Shown here piece after piece: positions 447 to 31,213 of a stretch of 31,213 nt of DNA. Position numbers and translations under genes: made by a program. The stretch's first letter is position 1. Every line of letters begins with the position of its first letter. Below the pieces are notes generated by a model, which made no database searches, had not been told where the DNA came from, and saw nothing but the letters and a program-made list of their open reading frames with translations. The stretch comes from a virus: positions 1 to 31,213 of IMG/VR virus record IMGVR_UViG_3300044846_003613; one strand, given 5' to 3'.

Positions 447-656
447 TTAATTTAATGGTACTCCCTTGTTTGTGTAATATTCAATCAATTCTATTTTGTG
501 CTGTAAAGCAAGAATTGGAGTCATTGCATCTGCCTCCCAATAGAACGGTGTTCTAACCGTCCTCCAATCTTCTAGATCAAAGTGTTTTGTAAGTTGCGCA
601 AACCTATCTCGCAGTGCTTTTATTGAATGATAATCATGTTTTTCATTATAATCCAT
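447..656 (-). CDS. Small protein of unknown function between VWA and MoxR genes
   Basis: This 69-residue charged, aromatic-rich protein has no signal peptide or membrane segment and no family I recognise. Its ATG overlaps the TGA of the VWA gene as ATGA, and its stop is 5 bases before the MoxR start, so it is translationally coupled inside that pair. The tight packing argues that it is real and may be a small accessory of the AAA+/VWA system, but that role is inferred from position only. Confidence 0.7.
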   Translation of the reverse strand: MDYNEKHDYHSIKALRDRFAQLTKHFDLEDWRTVRTPFYWEADAMTPILALQHKIELIEYYTNKGVPLN

Positions 657-1903
657 CAGTTCAATTTAATAGTTTTGCCTGGCAAATGGTCAGTGTCTTG
701 ACATCTTGTAGATAAAACCCACAACATGTTTTTAACTGGCGCATCTGGAGCTGGACATTCTCCATCTGTAAGATAGATTAGTGTTGTATATTTCTTTCTG
801 TGTTGCATGTAATAATCTACAACAGGATTGAAATCTGTGCCTCCTCTTTTTTTAATTACAAGAGGTACATTTGGTCTGTATTTAATTGGATCTTGCATTT
901 GTGTATCAGCAAATATCAATGTGAAATCATGCCCGCATTTGTACATGTGGTGAATTTCATTCATGAATTCTTTGATTTCATCATCAGATACTGAAGCGGA
1001 ACTGTCAATTGCAATTAAGATGTTTGAGAACTCCTGCACTTTTATTCCAAAGTCTAATTCAAAACGCTTGCTTTGTTTTCTTTTGGTTTTGCGCATACTG
1101 TTCTTAGAGCTGTTCCCAATGTATCTTCTTAGATAAGCTCTCCAATTAAACTTTGGTGGTTCAATTTGTTTAAGCTTTTCTAACTTCTGCAGGACTTCTC
1201 TAGGGATTGTACCACGCATCTTTTGTACTTGTTCAACAACTTCGTCTAGCATTACTTCCAATTGCTTGTCAATAAGCTTTTGTTGTGTTTCTGATAGATC
1301 ATCAAAATCGTCCCATTGGTGATCTGGTACACGCATGTTACTTGAACCTTGACCACTAACTTGCATCGTACCGTTGGCAATAGCATCTTTTATGGCATCA
1401 AGTAAACTTTGTCCTTGTCCTTGACCTTGCCCTTGTCCGTTACCAGATCCTGGTCCTTGTCCGTCATCAGCACGGTTTAGTTTTTCATAATAGATATTGG
1501 TGCCTTCTTCCGGAAGCAAATCATATCCTTTATCAATAAACTTTTCTAGTGTACAACCATCTGGTGGCAGATAAGACTCAGGAATCTTTTGATTGATTTC
1601 AATATCTTGAGCAATATTTGCAAGCTCATGACTTTTAAGATGCTTGTATTCTGTAATATGAAAGAATGCAATGTGCATCAATTCATGCTGAAGCAACCCT
1701 TTCTTGTGTTCTTCAGATAATGTTTGCCAAAATTCCGGATTGATATACAACTTGTAGTTGATTCCTTCTAGTCCAACACCGGCTGTTGGTACTTTTGTTG
1801 TCCATTCTTTGTTAAGATTTAGAAGCAGTAATCCATAAAATGGCTGTTCTAACATCAAATCTTTACAAATCTTTGTGAGATTTTGTTGGAGTTGTGCTGA
1901 CAT
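656..1903 (-). CDS. VWA-domain protein with N-terminal metallopeptidase-like domain (DUF2201/COG3864 type)
   Basis: The 415-residue protein has two parts. The N-terminal part carries a zinc-binding HELMH motif at residues 73-77, followed by NIAQDIEIN near 96-104 that could supply the third ligand, as in putative VWA-like metallopeptidases of the DUF2201 group. A low-complexity Gly/Gln linker (about 148-165) follows. The C-terminal part is a von Willebrand A fold with MIDAS residues DSSAS (300-304), GGTDF (354-358) and TDGE (379-382). Proteins of this build are usually found next to MoxR-type AAA+ ATPases, as here. The pair probably remodels or cleaves a host or virion protein complex, but the substrate cannot be seen. 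Confidence 0.85.
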   Translation of the reverse strand: MSAQLQQNLTKICKDLMLEQPFYGLLLLNLNKEWTTKVPTAGVGLEGINYKLYINPEFWQTLSEEHKKGLLQHELMHIAFFHITEYKHLKSHELANIAQDIEINQKIPESYLPPDGCTLEKFIDKGYDLLPEEGTNIYYEKLNRADDGQGPGSGNGQGQGQGQGQSLLDAIKDAIANGTMQVSGQGSSNMRVPDHQWDDFDDLSETQQKLIDKQLEVMLDEVVEQVQKMRGTIPREVLQKLEKLKQIEPPKFNWRAYLRRYIGNSSKNSMRKTKRKQSKRFELDFGIKVQEFSNILIAIDSSASVSDDEIKEFMNEIHHMYKCGHDFTLIFADTQMQDPIKYRPNVPLVIKKRGGTDFNPVVDYYMQHRKKYTTLIYLTDGECPAPDAPVKNMLWVLSTRCQDTDHLPGKTIKLN

Positions 1904-3304: not shown

Positions 3305-4063
3305 TTAATCCTCCATGTCAAACAACTCGCTGTCATCTAACTCATCTGCATCATCAAACGGACTGTCCGCAGGCGCGTTAGCAAATTCGTCATCCTCGTC
3401 ATCAACTCCGTCATTAAGAGCTGCATTTTCTGTTACAGCTTTAGACTTTGTAATGTGAACTGTTGGATCAAACTTGGTAACTAATCCACCTTCAATTGCA
3501 AATGGAGAGGCTGCATCTTTTTTCTCTGGCAACCACATGTAGTATACTGTGTATCCAGCAGAATTTTGACCTTCTGTAGCACCAATACACCAAGAGAAGT
3601 ATTTCTCTTTAAGCAATCCTGAACGAATGATACCAGAGAACATTTGTTCCCAAGTGTCAAACTTACCATCGTTGTCTTCCAACCATGTATCAGCACCAAC
3701 TTCAGACAACAATTTTTGCAAGAACTCAAGAATTTTTGCAGATGCCAAAATCTTGTATGGCTTTCCTGTTTTCTTAGAAGTACCTTCACTTGTTCTGATT
3801 GGCCAGTTAGAGAACTGAATCTTTTTAGTTTGACCTAAATGCTGACCTTTACTTGGATCACCAAACACTTTGTCAAAACCTACGAAGTCCCCACCAATTG
3901 GTTTGCTTTCCAATTCAATAAAGATTTTGTACTCAGGATTCTTTGGATCCTTTGGAGTTTTTACTTGTTCAATAGACAAGTTGTTGATTTTTGCTACAAC
4001 ATTACCTGGCTTTAATTCTTTGGAGATGTGATTTTTCTTAACTCCTTTAGTTGAAATAGACAT
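3305..4063 (-). CDS. Single-stranded DNA-binding protein (acidic-tail type)
   Basis: This 252-residue protein has a mixed alpha/beta core with many aromatic and lysine residues (for example FSNWPIRTSEG near 84-94 and YTVYYMW further on), then a strongly acidic disordered tail with repeated Asp/Glu ending in SELFDMED. Such a tail, used to contact polymerase, helicase and primase, is typical of phage ssDNA-binding proteins of the gp2.5/gp32 kind. Its neighbours are a Sak4-like ATPase upstream and the primase downstream. I infer the function from tail and context; no OB-fold signature can be proved by eye. The start lies in A-rich sequence without a Shine-Dalgarno motif. Confidence 0.7.
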   Translation of the reverse strand: MSISTKGVKKNHISKELKPGNVVAKINNLSIEQVKTPKDPKNPEYKIFIELESKPIGGDFVGFDKVFGDPSKGQHLGQTKKIQFSNWPIRTSEGTSKKTGKPYKILASAKILEFLQKLLSEVGADTWLEDNDGKFDTWEQMFSGIIRSGLLKEKYFSWCIGATEGQNSAGYTVYYMWLPEKKDAASPFAIEGGLVTKFDPTVHITKSKAVTENAALNDGVDDEDDEFANAPADSPFDDADELDDSELFDMED

Positions 4064-9302: not shown

Positions 9303-9570
9303 AAAACTTTTTTTCTTCTTTTGTTAGCTCTTCGTATTTATATACTGGTGGATTCAGCATTTCTTCTTCAGAATCATAGTATGGTTCTGTTTTGCTGCCA
9401 AGTATTCCGCTACTACGCGGTGTTATTTTCCTTATGTAACCTTCATCAATAATGATTTGCTCTACTTCTAAGATGCTTATTTCTTGGTCCCTGGCTATCT
9501 CTTTTATAGATGATCCAGTTTCATACATTAAGCCAATTCTTTTTTTGTAACGAGCACTGAGCTCAGACAT
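9280..9570 (-). CDS. Small helix-turn-helix-like protein, 96 residues
   Basis: Residues about 5-45 (KKRIGLMYETGSSIKEIARD, then ISILEVEQIIIDEG) have the spacing of a simple homeodomain-like helix-turn-helix. The C-terminal half is acidic and aromatic. It probably binds DNA or interacts with the transcription machinery. It abuts both neighbours and overlaps the downstream gene by 23 bases. Confidence 0.65.
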   Translation of the reverse strand: MSELSARYKKRIGLMYETGSSIKEIARDQEISILEVEQIIIDEGYIRKITPRSSGILGSKTEPYYDSEEEMLNPPVYKYEELTKEEKKFYESRTDK

Positions 9571-9851
9571 TACGCAAGCTTTGGATTCAGTATTTCATCT
9601 AATTCTGCTTCAATTGCGTCCATTTCGGATTGTTCAACAGGAACAAAGCGGTCTGGATTGAAATAGTGATAAGGGAAACATTCTTCTCCAAGAGTGATTT
9701 CTGCGAGCTCGAACCCCATTGAGTTTGATGATAGTAACGGTTGCACACCGATAAGCGTGTAGACTGTGCCTGCTGTTACCCACTTGTTTGCAGGAATTTC
9801 TTGAGGTCTATTCTTGTCATTGACACACATAATTCTCATTGGTAAACTCAT
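9570..9851 (-). CDS. Conserved small phage protein, SH3-like beta barrel (tentative)
   Basis: The 93-residue protein reads MRIMCVNDKNRPQEIP, then a W-V-T-A-G-T-V-Y-T-L segment, then GFELAEI, a Cys-containing FPYHYFNPDRF, and an acidic helix. I recognise this pattern (a CxDxxxxPxEIP start, YTV strand, YF...RF end) from many Bacteroidota and other phages, where it remains uncharacterised. Beta-barrel structure is inferred from the alternating strands. Confidence 0.75.
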   Translation of the reverse strand: MSLPMRIMCVNDKNRPQEIPANKWVTAGTVYTLIGVQPLLSSNSMGFELAEITLGEECFPYHYFNPDRFVPVEQSEMDAIEAELDEILNPKLA

Positions 9852-10057
9852 AATTGCTTTCCGTCTTTAATTTGATTTAACTCTTCTTCTTCTTGTTCTT
9901 CAAGCCATGCATCAAAGTTGATTTCAAACTGCCCGTACATGTCTGACATTACCTCTGTCAAATATGTTTTGAATATGTTTGCTGTTTGCGGTTTACTGTA
10001 TCCGCATTCACTTAATGTGGTAACTATATTCTCAGGTATGTCAATCTTAATTGTCAT
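9848..10057 (-). CDS. Small acidic protein, 69 residues
   Basis: Reads MTIKIDIPENIVTTLSECGY followed by an amphipathic helix and an acidic EEQEEEEL end. No family recognised. ATGA-type overlaps link it to both neighbours. Confidence 0.65.
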   Translation of the reverse strand: MTIKIDIPENIVTTLSECGYSKPQTANIFKTYLTEVMSDMYGQFEINFDAWLEEQEEEELNQIKDGKQL

Positions 10058-10353
10058 GGTGTTTGCAATTTGATTATTTTCTGTAGGAACAATTCATTCT
10101 CTCTCTTCAAATCTTTGATGCGGTTTTCTTTGTCCTTGAGTTCTTCTTTGAGCCGTTTGTTTTTAAGAATGAGCGCACTCTTTTCTTCAGTCTTCATTAG
10201 ATCTTTAAGTTCATCTATTTCTGACTGGAGCATTCCAATTTCTATATTGAGATTGCGATTAGATTCTTCTAACTGCTTCTTCTCAAATTCTAGCCAAAGA
10301 ACCTTTTCTTCAGGAGTCTTTGGCCGTAAATTCATTAATGGTTCTTGTTCCAT
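10054..10353 (-). CDS. Coiled-coil protein, 99 residues
   Basis: Nearly the whole sequence from residue 13 to 95 is Glu/Lys/Leu-rich with heptad spacing (EEKVLWLEFEKKQLEE, then LQSEIDELKDLMK, LKEELKDKENRIKDLKREN), a long two-stranded coiled coil. No catalytic motif. It lies just after the ClpS-like gene with a 2-base gap. Confidence 0.7.
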   Translation of the reverse strand: MEQEPLMNLRPKTPEEKVLWLEFEKKQLEESNRNLNIEIGMLQSEIDELKDLMKTEEKSALILKNKRLKEELKDKENRIKDLKRENELFLQKIIKLQTP

Positions 10354-10355
10354 AT

Positions 10356-10577
10356 CTATTCTATTAGTTCAACCTTTAGGTTGTGATTTTCTAAACTGTT
10401 TTTCATGTCCAGCATTTCTATAAAATCTCCGTCTTTAATAGTTACCTTCTTGTTGTTGTGTGCAATTAAAGCACATTGTTCAGCTTGAATAGGCAAGTGT
10501 TCGCAGTATCTAATTAGACATGCGGTTACTTTTGCGAAGCTGTTCTTGTCGTCATTATAGAGAATTAACTTTGCCAT
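10356..10577 (-). CDS. clpS: ClpS-like N-degron adaptor
   Basis: The 73-residue protein matches the ClpS core almost end to end. It has LILYNDD at 4-10 (the NDD that grips the N-terminal amine of a substrate), IRYCEHLPIQAEQCALIAH at 22-40 with the conserved His, a K-V-T-I-K strand, then an acidic helix and VELIE at the end. The wording is closest to Bacteroidota ClpS, which read NDD...QAEQC...HYKGKC. The N-terminal arm that engages ClpA/ClpC in bacterial ClpS is almost absent here (3 residues before the core). It might redirect host N-end-rule proteolysis or block it. It overlaps the SF2 helicase gene by 23 bases. Confidence 0.8.
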   Translation of the reverse strand: MAKLILYNDDKNSFAKVTACLIRYCEHLPIQAEQCALIAHNNKKVTIKDGDFIEMLDMKNSLENHNLKVELIE

Positions 10578-11643
10578 TGTATTTTAGTACTTTGTTTTTA
10601 TCAAAATCTTTTAATGCTGTCTTGCACCATTTTAAATCTATGGTTTCTTTGTAACATAGTAAATGTACAACACTTTTTTGATTTGGATTTAATCTTAGGA
10701 ACCTTCCAATCTTTTGGCGCAACTTTTTTTCATTAGCATAAGCATGCATAATGATTCCAACTTTTAGATCCGGAATGTTTATTCCTTCAGCAAGTTGTTG
10801 AACAGAAGCCAACTGATTTATTTCTCCAGTGCGAAACTTTTCTAAATACAATTTAGAATTTTTTTCTTTGCTGTGATAAACATATCTAGAAATTCTATCT
10901 GCCTGATCTGTAAAATCAGTAAACACTAATGTCTTGTCAGTCTGTTGGCTCAACAATTCTTTTGCATAAGTTACCTTTGTTTGGTATGATTGAATTGCTT
11001 TCATTCGCATGATACGCATCATCATTTCTTTATGCGGCTTGGCATTGTCTACAATGTTGCACCACATGAGGTAATCTTTATGCTCAGATGTATAGCCTCC
11101 ATTCTTTTTTTTAAGTGTGTTGAATTTATTCAGATCCAATAGATGAACATAGATCCGGTAATCATTAAGCATGTGGTCAGCAATGCCATCACTGATTTCA
11201 TACTTGTACACAACAGGACAAAACTTTTCACAGACCTTATAGGATTCAGAAGTTTTGTACTTTGGATATGTTCCGGTTAATCCTAATATGGGCCCATCAT
11301 ATAATCTTAACCAGTCACCGTGCTTTTTTTTAGCGTTGTGACATTCATCAAGATAAACAAAATCATAACTGTAATTGGCTTTGTGTAAGCTAATGTAAGT
11401 TATGAATTGCATGTGAGGAATCAGATACTCAAGTCCATGTTCTTGCGCCTGGCTAATCCATTCTTGATGAATAGATATTTTAGGTGCAACAACTAGGAAC
11501 AATGAAGTATCCGTATATTTTTTTGCCATGTGCTTGAGTCCCAACAAAGTTTTGCCAGCACCCGTGCCTAGAATGACACCAGAATATTTCCTTGTTCCTA
11601 TAGCTGTAAGACAAGCTGCTTGAATTTCTGATTTCTTATTCAT
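10555..11643 (-). CDS. SF2 DEAD/DEAH-box helicase
   Basis: The 362-residue protein has the SF2 motifs in order: I GTGAGKT (26-32), II DECH (99-102), III TGT (123-125), and in the second RecA lobe LVFTDF (239-244), AEGINIP (285-291) and VI QKIGRFLR (310-317). It is a compact UvsW/ResIII-like enzyme with no extra domains, likely used in recombination-dependent replication, fork remodelling or R-loop removal. It overlaps the ClpS-like gene and the upstream gene. Confidence 0.85.
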   Translation of the reverse strand: MNKKSEIQAACLTAIGTRKYSGVILGTGAGKTLLGLKHMAKKYTDTSLFLVVAPKISIHQEWISQAQEHGLEYLIPHMQFITYISLHKANYSYDFVYLDECHNAKKKHGDWLRLYDGPILGLTGTYPKYKTSESYKVCEKFCPVVYKYEISDGIADHMLNDYRIYVHLLDLNKFNTLKKKNGGYTSEHKDYLMWCNIVDNAKPHKEMMMRIMRMKAIQSYQTKVTYAKELLSQQTDKTLVFTDFTDQADRISRYVYHSKEKNSKLYLEKFRTGEINQLASVQQLAEGINIPDLKVGIIMHAYANEKKLRQKIGRFLRLNPNQKSVVHLLCYKETIDLKWCKTALKDFDKNKVLKYNGKVNSL

Positions 11644-17862: not shown

Positions 17863-17934
17863 CGGTATAGGAGGGAATCGAACCCACACACATAGCATTG
17901 TTGCTACAGCTCTACCAGTTGAGCTTACTATACC
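17863..17934 (-). tRNA. Degenerate tRNA or tRNA-like RNA with abnormal anticodon loop
   Basis: A 72-base element on the minus strand has a perfect 7-bp acceptor stem GGTATAG/CTATACC, a D arm GCTC-AACTGGTA-GAGC with the conserved GG, and a T arm whose loop is TTCGATT (one stem mismatch). The anticodon arm is GTAGC-AACAAT-GCTAT: a 6-base loop without the invariant T33, and there is one extra base between the acceptor and D stems. So no anticodon can be assigned. No CCA is encoded. It could be a decaying tRNA, a decoy, or a processing signal for the flanking structured RNAs. Confidence 0.55.
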
Positions 17935-28094: not shown

Positions 28095-28655
28095 ATGAGT
28101 ACTAATATTCATTTAGACAGGTATTCATCAAACCCTAATGGATATTTGAGTAGATTATACACTCAAACAAATTCTAGTATTCCTGTAACCAATACAACTG
28201 TAGAAACAAGTTTATTGGATGGCGGTTTAGGTAGCCTTACTGTTCCAGCTAATGCTTTTCAGGTTGGAGATAGTTTTCATGCCATACTTACAGGACATAT
28301 ATCTTCTGTAAATAATCACAAACTTCAAATAAGAGTCAAAACAGGTGCAATAGAACTTGCAACTACTGATCAAATAATAATGGCTGGTTCAACTAACAAG
28401 CATTGGAAGTTAGAACTCTTTTTTACAGTTAGAACCATTGGTGCATCAGGTGTTGCATCAGTAGTTACAGGTGGCACATTTATGTACACAAAAGATGCAA
28501 GTACTGCATTTGAAGGTGCAAATTTTAGCACAGAAGTCTTTGCTGGTTTTGACACAACTATAGACAACACTTTGTCTATTACAGCACAATGGGATACAGC
28601 AAATGCAGGAGATTCAATTTATTCAGAAATAGTCACATTAAATAAAACTTACTAA
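28095..28655 (+). CDS. Virion structural protein, jelly-roll-like, 186 residues
   Basis: Beta-rich protein with IPVTNTTVETSLLDGGLGSL, LTVPANAFQVGDSFHAILTG and LQIRVKTGAIELAT: alternating strands of a jelly-roll type found in virion proteins of large phages. Its ATG is 2 bases after the preceding stop and its TAA overlaps the next ATG. Confidence 0.65.
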   Translation: MSTNIHLDRYSSNPNGYLSRLYTQTNSSIPVTNTTVETSLLDGGLGSLTVPANAFQVGDSFHAILTGHISSVNNHKLQIRVKTGAIELATTDQIIMAGSTNKHWKLELFFTVRTIGASGVASVVTGGTFMYTKDASTAFEGANFSTEVFAGFDTTIDNTLSITAQWDTANAGDSIYSEIVTLNKTY

Positions 28656-31213
28656 TGAGTACATTTATTACCATACCAAATGAAAGCAATGAGGGGTGTA
28701 TTCCACCATTAAATTTTAAACCCGGTTCAATAGGTCCAAAGGTATCTTTTGTAAAAAGACCAAATTCTAGTGATACAGATATAATTATCCCAGGAATCTT
28801 AGAAATTACTAGAGGTAGCAATGGTGGTATTTACAACGTTGCTGTTGAAGGTAATTATAATCAAGCACAGTCACCTCAATACACAAGATGGAATACTCAA
28901 TATGTAGATGCAGACAATACAGATTGGTCAGATTTAACAAGTATTCAAAATAGAACTTATTTGGTTTGGAGAGATGCAATTACAACTCCATCTAATGATG
29001 CAGCACCACCAATGTATGTTGGAATGCGATCAATCATGAAATTTGATATGGGTGGTATAGTTAAATACTACTTGGTTATTTTTACAGAATGGCAGGCTAA
29101 TGGATCCGGTGGCGGTTTTGCTTATGACCGTTATGAAATTTTAGATGGTGTATATATTGAACAACTTAGTTCTGATGATCCAAATGCACAACAAACAATT
29201 GATATTGTATCACCCAATGTACATTTAACTAGAAGATACCAAGGAGGCGGACTGTATAACAGTGCAGTTGAAAATAATGCTCTGCAAGGACTTTCGCCTT
29301 ATAATACAAGATGGAATAGTATTTTTACAGACACAAGACCAGGTCATTCAGGTTTTGCAAACTTAACAAATCTTGAATCAAGAGTTTATACGGATTTTAC
29401 AAGTGCATTAGATGGCAACATAGGTAATAATTTACCAGGCACTGATTTAATAATGCATGATCTAACAACCGGGGTTTATCATAAAATTGAATTTGATGCT
29501 TGGGCGCAAGGTTGCGGAGGTCCTGGAAGCATTCAGTATAATTCTACTTATTCAAATCCTTCGGGATACCCAGAAGGTACCATTTATGTTCAAGGAACAG
29601 GAGGCTCTGGTTCAGGTATGGTGATGCAGATTAATACTGATAATTCAGGCAATATGCAGGGTTACGGTCTTACTCAAAATGGAAGTGGTTATCAAGTTGG
29701 AGATACTGTTTTATTTATATTTAATGGAAGTGGAACTTTACAAATAACCATAGCGACTGTTTGTTCCCAAGGAGGTTTTACATACACAAGAACACCAATT
29801 CCTCAATCATGTGGAATTAAGTTTGCAGATGGTACGGTTATAAACTCTGCTAACTCATTAGGTGGTGTACAATCTGTTACAGGATTAAATACTAATAATG
29901 CAGATCCTGCAAATCCAATTGTAAAAATATCTGTTGATGGTATAACAATTACTGGAGATGGAACTCCTGGTAGTCCTTTGGTAGCTACAACTTCTTGTAA
30001 ACCAGAGTTTATAAAAATTGCATCTCATTCTTGTAATGTAAGAGCAGGGTTAATACAAAATTCAGAACTTTCAATTTTATTTGGTGGATTTCCTTATAAT
30101 TATGATGATTCATATTTGCCAATATGGTCAACTGAATTGCATAATTACAAATTTGGTTTTGCCACACCTGGTATAAATCCTAATCAAAAAGCATTAGGTA
30201 TTGCATGTCCAGCAAATTTGGTTAAAAATGATGTTTTAAGAATATCAGGATCAGCTTACTATAATAATTTTGAGAACTATAATGATGGAGGATTTAATGT
30301 AAACTTTTTTATTGCTGTTTCAGTATTTGATTGTTCAGAAATCATAGATGGTAAATATCCTTCATTTACATTAATTCCTTTGCAAACATACTTTTTTGGT
30401 AAAGACAGCTCACTTTGTTTTTCAGCAGAAGTAACATTACCTAAAAATTATGATTTACACACTACTAGGTTTCTTGTAGGTGCTGGAGCAACAGCTATTT
30501 GTCCAGAAGGTAATACTTGTGAACTTGTTGAACCTATTGCTGAAAATCTTATTAGTTTATCTTATACACTTGATGTTGAAAGACCATGTGCAGCAGAGTT
30601 AAATAATTACATTATTAAAAATTGTTGTGAGCCAATTATTACTGAATTAGTTTATGCACCTGATGGTTTAACAGTTGGCGATTTTCTTAGTGATGACGAA
30701 GGTAACTGTTGGGAAGTTTTATCTGCTTCTACAGATGTAACTAACTTTAGCAGAAACTTTGTAAACACTTATGTTTCGTGTGCTGAATGTCAAAATGAGA
30801 ATGCTTGTCCGGCTAATCTTGTTATTTCATCATGTTGTGTACCCGGAACTGAATTTGTAACTGGATCGCTTCCAGGATTACAATTAGGTGATACATTTGT
30901 TGATAATAATGGATTATGTTGGAATGTTGTAGGTGAAACATCAGTACCAATATCAGAAGAGTCAATTACAGTTGGTGCAATTATAGATGGATCTTGTCCA
31001 GATTGTCAGGCATTGCATCCTTGTCCTAATTTTTATAAAGTTAGTTCTTGCTGTCTTGGTATTGACGTATCAATATCAACACCTGTTACTTTAAATCAAG
31101 GTGATTCATTTGTGGATCAGTTAGGAAGATGTTGGATGTGCATGGGTGAAGCAGATCAATTACCAACAGATTACAGCATTGAAGTTGTTACAGTGTATCC
31201 TACACCAACACCT
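28655..31213 (+). CDS. Long virion fibre-like protein (C-terminus cut by window edge)
   Basis: The frame is open from the ATG at 28655 to the right edge, 853 codons. Residues about 51-110 and 191-252 form an internal duplication (G.YN.AVE.N..Q..SP..TRWN, then LT..(Q/E).R.Y). From about residue 650 to the end are three Cys-rich repeats of about 71 residues, each with a CC pair (657-658, 727-728, 799-800), GD.F.D..G.CW and a Pro/Cys linker. Gly/Thr/Asn-rich, beta-solenoid-like. Residues before the edge read PTPTP. It is likely a tail fibre or decoration protein; the Cys pairs may bind metal or form disulphides outside the cell. Confidence 0.75.
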   Translation, partial: MSTFITIPNESNEGCIPPLNFKPGSIGPKVSFVKRPNSSDTDIIIPGILEITRGSNGGIYNVAVEGNYNQAQSPQYTRWNTQYVDADNTDWSDLTSIQNRTYLVWRDAITTPSNDAAPPMYVGMRSIMKFDMGGIVKYYLVIFTEWQANGSGGGFAYDRYEILDGVYIEQLSSDDPNAQQTIDIVSPNVHLTRRYQGGGLYNSAVENNALQGLSPYNTRWNSIFTDTRPGHSGFANLTNLESRVYTDFTSALDGNIGNNLPGTDLIMHDLTTGVYHKIEFDAWAQGCGGPGSIQYNSTYSNPSGYPEGTIYVQGTGGSGSGMVMQINTDNSGNMQGYGLTQNGSGYQVGDTVLFIFNGSGTLQITIATVCSQGGFTYTRTPIPQSCGIKFADGTVINSANSLGGVQSVTGLNTNNADPANPIVKISVDGITITGDGTPGSPLVATTSCKPEFIKIASHSCNVRAGLIQNSELSILFGGFPYNYDDSYLPIWSTELHNYKFGFATPGINPNQKALGIACPANLVKNDVLRISGSAYYNNFENYNDGGFNVNFFIAVSVFDCSEIIDGKYPSFTLIPLQTYFFGKDSSLCFSAEVTLPKNYDLHTTRFLVGAGATAICPEGNTCELVEPIAENLISLSYTLDVERPCAAELNNYIIKNCCEPIITELVYAPDGLTVGDFLSDDEGNCWEVLSASTDVTNFSRNFVNTYVSCAECQNENACPANLVISSCCVPGTEFVTGSLPGLQLGDTFVDNNGLCWNVVGETSVPISEESITVGAIIDGSCPDCQALHPCPNFYKVSSCCLGIDVSISTPVTLNQGDSFVDQLGRCWMCMGEADQLPTDYSIEVVTVYPTPTP

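Follow-up and report, generated by a model that had tools for sequence, protein, structure and literature searches.

A crAss-like phage encodes a core-only ClpS without the N-terminal arm

The stretch of DNA analysed here (the window), a 31,213-bp fragment from IMG/VR, contains on the minus strand at positions 10356–10577 a gene confirmed to encode ClpS, whose 73-residue product (MAKLILYNDDKNSFAKVTACLIRYCEHLPIQAEQCALIAHNNKKVTIKDGDFIEMLDMKNSLENHNLKVELIE, translated from this ORF) retains the N-degron pocket and has no N-terminal arm. We infer that this protein stems from a host adaptor that would no longer deliver cargo and would instead act on host ClpC as a competitor or regulator; the data suggest that a core-only ClpS may jam or redirect host protein disposal. 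The window adds a crAss-like ClpS family to the cases known from jumbo phages; the real novelty lies in a series of phage forms which comprises arm-bearing, short-arm and armless proteins, the last with or without the pocket.

The earlier note on this DNA had recognised a ClpS carrying the NDD and His signature of the N-degron pocket, and both parts of that claim were borne out. The Pfam ClpS profile (PF02617) covers residues 2–68 with 38.7 bits (cut-off 23; E 8.4e-10) and relatives are encoded on more than 80 viral contig stretches, which rules out a chance ORF; PHROGs gave no clear match (best E 0.013). An AlphaFold2 model calculated from 49 phage sequences (mean pLDDT 97.1, pTM 0.84) agrees with a ClpS fold. 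In a Foldseek comparison with the PDB its top match is ClpS of M. smegmatis (TM 0.95), and the first 38 matches are all ClpS. The C-terminal domain of ribosomal protein L7/L12, which has a related fold, follows later as a weaker match and is without a Pfam hit above the applied threshold; an L7/L12-like ORF is thus ruled out by the Pfam score together with the Foldseek ranking. Upon alignment, N8, D9, D10 and H40 correspond to N34, D35, D36 and H66 of E. coli ClpS, such that all four pocket residues are kept.

Only three residues precede the core, as the earlier note had pointed out; they are M-A-K, in front of the motif LILYNDD, and residue 1 aligns with residue 27 of E. coli ClpS, which corresponds to an arm length of zero. 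Since the core of E. coli ClpS comprises residues 27–106 (PMC9663308), the window protein is a bare core. A misannotated start is ruled out by the DNA itself: the codons at 10586–10575 on the minus strand read TAA AAT ACA ATG and thus place an in-frame stop three codons 5' of the start (TAA AAT ACA, 10578–10586; open frame of 75 codons), so that no longer in-frame start exists and no arm is possible. Cellular Bacteroidota ClpS proteins, found with the phage profile and the seed PIQAEQCA, carry arms with a median length of 19 residues, the range being 17–26 in 73 of the 76 proteins. In E. coli, the N-terminal extension of ClpS sits in the ClpA channel where the unfoldase pulls on the adaptor, and blocked entry inhibits delivery (PMC9663308). 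An extension capable of entering the unfoldase channel, a trait of a delivery adaptor, is lacking in the window protein with its zero arm residues and upstream stop. The former statement that the arm engages ClpA or ClpC holds for E. coli ClpA, this evidence not extending to Bacteroidota ClpC. Separately, a ClpS with an arm of only 5 residues is encoded on a cellular contig (L120, Bacteroidetes MAG SZAS-3), perhaps owing to an independent loss or to a prophage.

The window phage is crAss-like (Crassvirales) according to shared genes. The DnaB-like helicase, AAA and primase genes of the window match those of cr4_1, a crAss-like phage that a 117-kb relative (G001) also matches in TerL (4e-26), portal (3e-27) and DNA polymerase (5e-48); the major capsid gave no match in this comparison. 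Named phages with a similar terminase include Flavobacterium and Bacteroides phages. A Bacteroidota host is likely, as judged from the crAss-like affiliation, these terminase kin and the nesting of the ClpS among Bacteroidota sequences. Elsewhere in the window, the empty-looking right end is not explained by recoded stops, because a standard-code frame of 853 codons (28655–31213, plus strand), which may encode a structural or tail protein, runs off the contig. The gene at 656–1903 (minus strand) bears conflicting labels, a DUF2201 putative metallopeptidase with a VWA-like domain in Pfam and an HNH endonuclease in PHROGs, and a tRNA at 17863–17934 (minus strand) is reported by Rfam (43.4 bits) and not by ARAGORN.

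The claimed overlap with an SF2 helicase gene also proved correct. The helicase gene (10555–11643, minus strand; Pfam Helicase_C 1.5e-10, ResIII 1.6e-6) is the upstream neighbour of clpS in all 80 phage relatives and shares 23 bp with it in the window (10555–10577). This overlap is restricted to the window and its relatives L001–L004, the other loci having a gap except for one with an 8 bp overlap. The same five loci are set apart by a 99-residue coiled-coil-like gene adjoining clpS (10054–10353, minus strand) and by a 69-residue gene (9848–10057, minus strand) placed between clpS and a 93-residue gene (9570–9851, minus strand). The latter, without Pfam match or assigned function, is found near clpS in 79 of the 80 relatives, and in most of them its start lies within clpS, at the 3' end; in L005–L080 (e.g. 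L005 near 3890–3923) the last clpS codons overlap its start in a different frame. Most relatives therewith have a Y-E-S-x-M-H tail on ClpS that is absent from the window protein. A functional C-terminal motif was ruled out; the tail is a by-product, because these bases, read in the other frame, specify the first residues (MKVICID) of the gene downstream. In two loci a GIY-YIG/NUMOD1 endonuclease ORF is inserted between clpS and the 93-residue gene (L009, 5485–6201; L052, from 4723), where the first codons of that gene remain at the clpS end and a complete copy follows the insert. In most relatives (e.g. L008, L046, L071), the clpS ATG is preceded at a distance of a few bases by a TATATTA-like stretch, which could be a promoter element or a leader signal.

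To sample the wider phage family, loci were selected for the helicase rather than for ClpS. Among the 80 helicase loci thus obtained, ClpS follows the helicase within the sequence covered in 46, and 34 have other genes there, at least two of these contigs (L375, L392) encoding ClpS elsewhere. This set and two more searches gave 179 distinct phage ClpS frames, partly found with QAEQC-type seeds and in viral records that may be incomplete. Together with the window they fall into 71 proteins with an arm of at least 10 residues, 97 with 3–9 residues (nine proteins with an ambiguous start being classed as short by the start adjoining a THK-type motif), five armless proteins with an intact pocket, which form the window clade, and seven armless proteins without the pocket. 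N34, D35 and H66 are kept in all 71 armed proteins, H66 is substituted in 29 of the 97 with 3–9 arm residues, and the seven have N34, D35, D36 and H66 all replaced. H66 is thus present in 71/71 armed versus 73/109 short-arm or armless proteins; however, few independent events stand behind these raw counts and a paired test was without power, so that a statistical link between the loss of the arm and that of H66 was not upheld. The pocketless proteins still possess the QAEQC-type residues, a conservation partly due to search bias because the seeds contained that stretch. One of them (L270) is recorded by the Pfam ClpS profile alone with E 0.0086, and its predicted fold (pLDDT 96.9) has ClpS as best match. 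As a further feature of the family, Cys and His residues at window positions 25, 27, 35 and 45 are common to most cellular (L102–L181) and phage ClpS and absent in E. coli, the window protein itself having V at position 45; they may form a metal site, the pattern being partly a search bias of the seed PIQAEQCA.

When the four pocket columns were excluded from tree building, 45 of the 46 short-arm proteins sampled fell into a single clade (support 100/97), which lies among phage and Bacteroidota ClpS and includes the armless window clade (98/97) and six pocketless proteins (100/96); with 67 columns, support for the finer order is limited. Arm loss marks essentially one phage clade. The truncated forms tested, i.e. 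the window clade and six pocketless proteins (the seventh, L309, being outside the test), are under purifying selection, with dN/dS values of 0.08–0.39, mostly about 0.1, from a simple pairwise method in which dS is often near saturation.

Any Clp partner of these proteins would be that of the host, because neither Clp_N nor ClpP was detected in a domain search of 20 related phage records, possibly fragments (0/20 each), while Clp_N occurs in Flavobacteriia genomes (8/8); a phage-encoded partner was accordingly discarded within this set. Aat was found in 0 of 14 related phage records and in 7 of 7 Flavobacteriia genomes. Among 14 control genomes, Bacteroides ihuae contains Clp_N and ClpP and no ClpS according to Pfam, and gut Bacteroides may lack the adaptor possessed by the environmental relatives. 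E. coli ClpS docks to ClpA through positions 79, 82 and 84 (PMC12493166). The corresponding helix-3 positions E79, E82 and K84 are occupied in the window protein by I53, L56 and M58, and a basic residue at the K84 position is found in 0 of 54 short-arm phage proteins. A helix-3 proline is present in 60/76 cellular, 49/71 armed phage and 1/109 short-arm or armless proteins. The rewritten helix 3 of the phage clade may weaken docking to ClpC. However, the near cellular relatives L104 and L105 are also devoid of E82 and K84, and for this reason we do not claim a loss of docking as proof of a trap.

A phage-encoded ClpS as such is not new. It has been published for jumbo phages with a proposed role in delivery to host ClpAP (PMC7824862), and ClpS is annotated in several phage records. 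The window shares phage encoding with the ClpS of Pseudomonas phage PA5oct, Sinorhizobium phage Phosso, Cronobacter phage GAP32 and Agrobacterium phage Atu_ph07, whose lineage is unrelated to the Bacteroidota-type core; in contrast to the window protein, those of PA5oct, Phosso and Atu_ph07 have arms of 18–19 residues, and that of Vibrio phage 2.275 has 5. Closer to the window are the Bacteroidota-type ClpS proteins of the uncultured huge phages LR756502, LR756504 and LR745206 (41–46% identity), although the arms of the two examined are 19–22 residues long. Cellular Bacteroidota ClpS proteins (37–56% identity to the first sequence of A1) resemble the window protein in the PIQAEQC-type core, the NDD and His pocket, an F at the M40 position and an equal core length. 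They differ from it by their arm of 17–26 residues, and from the phage clade by the exchange of V65 to A and the rewritten helix 3. BFVD lists, for the gut crAss-like phages cr10_1, cr50_1, cr1_1, cr56_1 and cr126_1, uncharacterised proteins whose fold resembles ClpS or the bL12 C-terminal domain and which may be distant kin. A literature search, with subscription journals mostly outside its coverage, found no paper on ClpS in crAss-like phages.

Consistent with these data we propose the following scenario. A crAss-like phage lineage would have acquired a Bacteroidota-type ClpS and trimmed it by loss of the arm to the folded core. The window protein might still recognise N-degrons, the N-domain of host ClpC or both, presumably with no handover of cargo because the unfoldase would have no arm to pull on, and such a non-delivering ClpS would compete with delivery and damp or redirect host ClpC-dependent proteolysis in infection. 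We put this forward tentatively, its chance being somewhat short of even. It is in line with the ClpS identity from Pfam, AlphaFold2 and Foldseek, the kept pocket, an arm of 0 versus a median of 19 residues, the role of the arm in delivery by E. coli ClpA, the single short-arm clade, the low dN/dS and the absence of Clp_N and ClpP from the 20 phage records. Against it, the role of the arm is established for E. coli ClpA and may not extend to Bacteroidota ClpC, the rewritten helix 3 may weaken docking to ClpC, and the pocketless relatives argue against N-degron binding as the function of all armless members. The role as trap or block advanced in the earlier note is a reasonable inference which gains some support from the one arm-loss clade and the pocket erosion inside it; trapping, on the other hand, is unlikely as a function common to all armless forms because the N-degron signature is gone in the pocketless ones.

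A working adaptor is a possibility that we consider rather doubtful. Bacteroidota ClpC would then need no ClpS arm, and the phage protein would pass selected proteins of host or phage on to the host's ClpCP, as suggested by the intact pocket of the window clade, the delivery role proposed for jumbo-phage ClpS (PMC7824862) and the short arm also seen in Vibrio phage 2.275. Yet the arm's conservation in 73 of 76 cellular Bacteroidota proteins and in 71 phage ClpS suggests that it matters there, arm loss coincides with changes in pocket and helix 3, and pocket erosion within the arm-loss clade fits a pure delivery adaptor poorly. About equally doubtful is a dedicated antagonist, in which the clade's ClpS would act as a core-only plug on the ClpC N-domain, so that the arm could be dispensed with first and the pocket later in some lineages. 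The fold might also serve, as a repurposed scaffold, another partner, probably via the helix 1–2 surface, such that neither N-degrons nor ClpC matter; this appears unlikely. The seven armless relatives that keep QAEQC-type residues without the pocket, with low dN/dS where tested, and the ClpS fold predicted for L270 would fit, but the window clade keeps every pocket residue under purifying selection and the QAEQC conservation is partly a search bias. A pure N-degron trap, binding and shielding proteins with destabilising N-termini without docking to ClpC, is improbable: the intact pocket, the absent arm and the missing basic residue at the K84 position agree with it, but that residue is likewise missing in L104 and L105, and pocketless relatives could not trap via the N-degron pocket. 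Finally, a relic shortened by genome compaction with little function, to which the helicase overlap peculiar to the window clade might point, is very improbable in view of the dN/dS values of diverged copies, which are mostly about 0.1, the confidently predicted fold and the persistence of the short-arm form over a large clade.

N-degron biology of the likely Bacteroidota hosts is little described, and a search of the literature covered revealed no paper mainly on this topic. Laboratory work splits the functions of ClpS by truncation and point mutation, and phages seem to have done likewise in nature. As arm-bearing, short-arm and armless forms with and without the pocket adjoin the same helicase, it becomes testable which part of ClpS the virus needs, and also whether host N-degron proteolysis limits infection. 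Should the clade's ClpS indeed act as a plug on ClpC, the pocketless armless proteins would represent a new type of phage-encoded ClpC inhibitor, one that has evolved from the adaptor.
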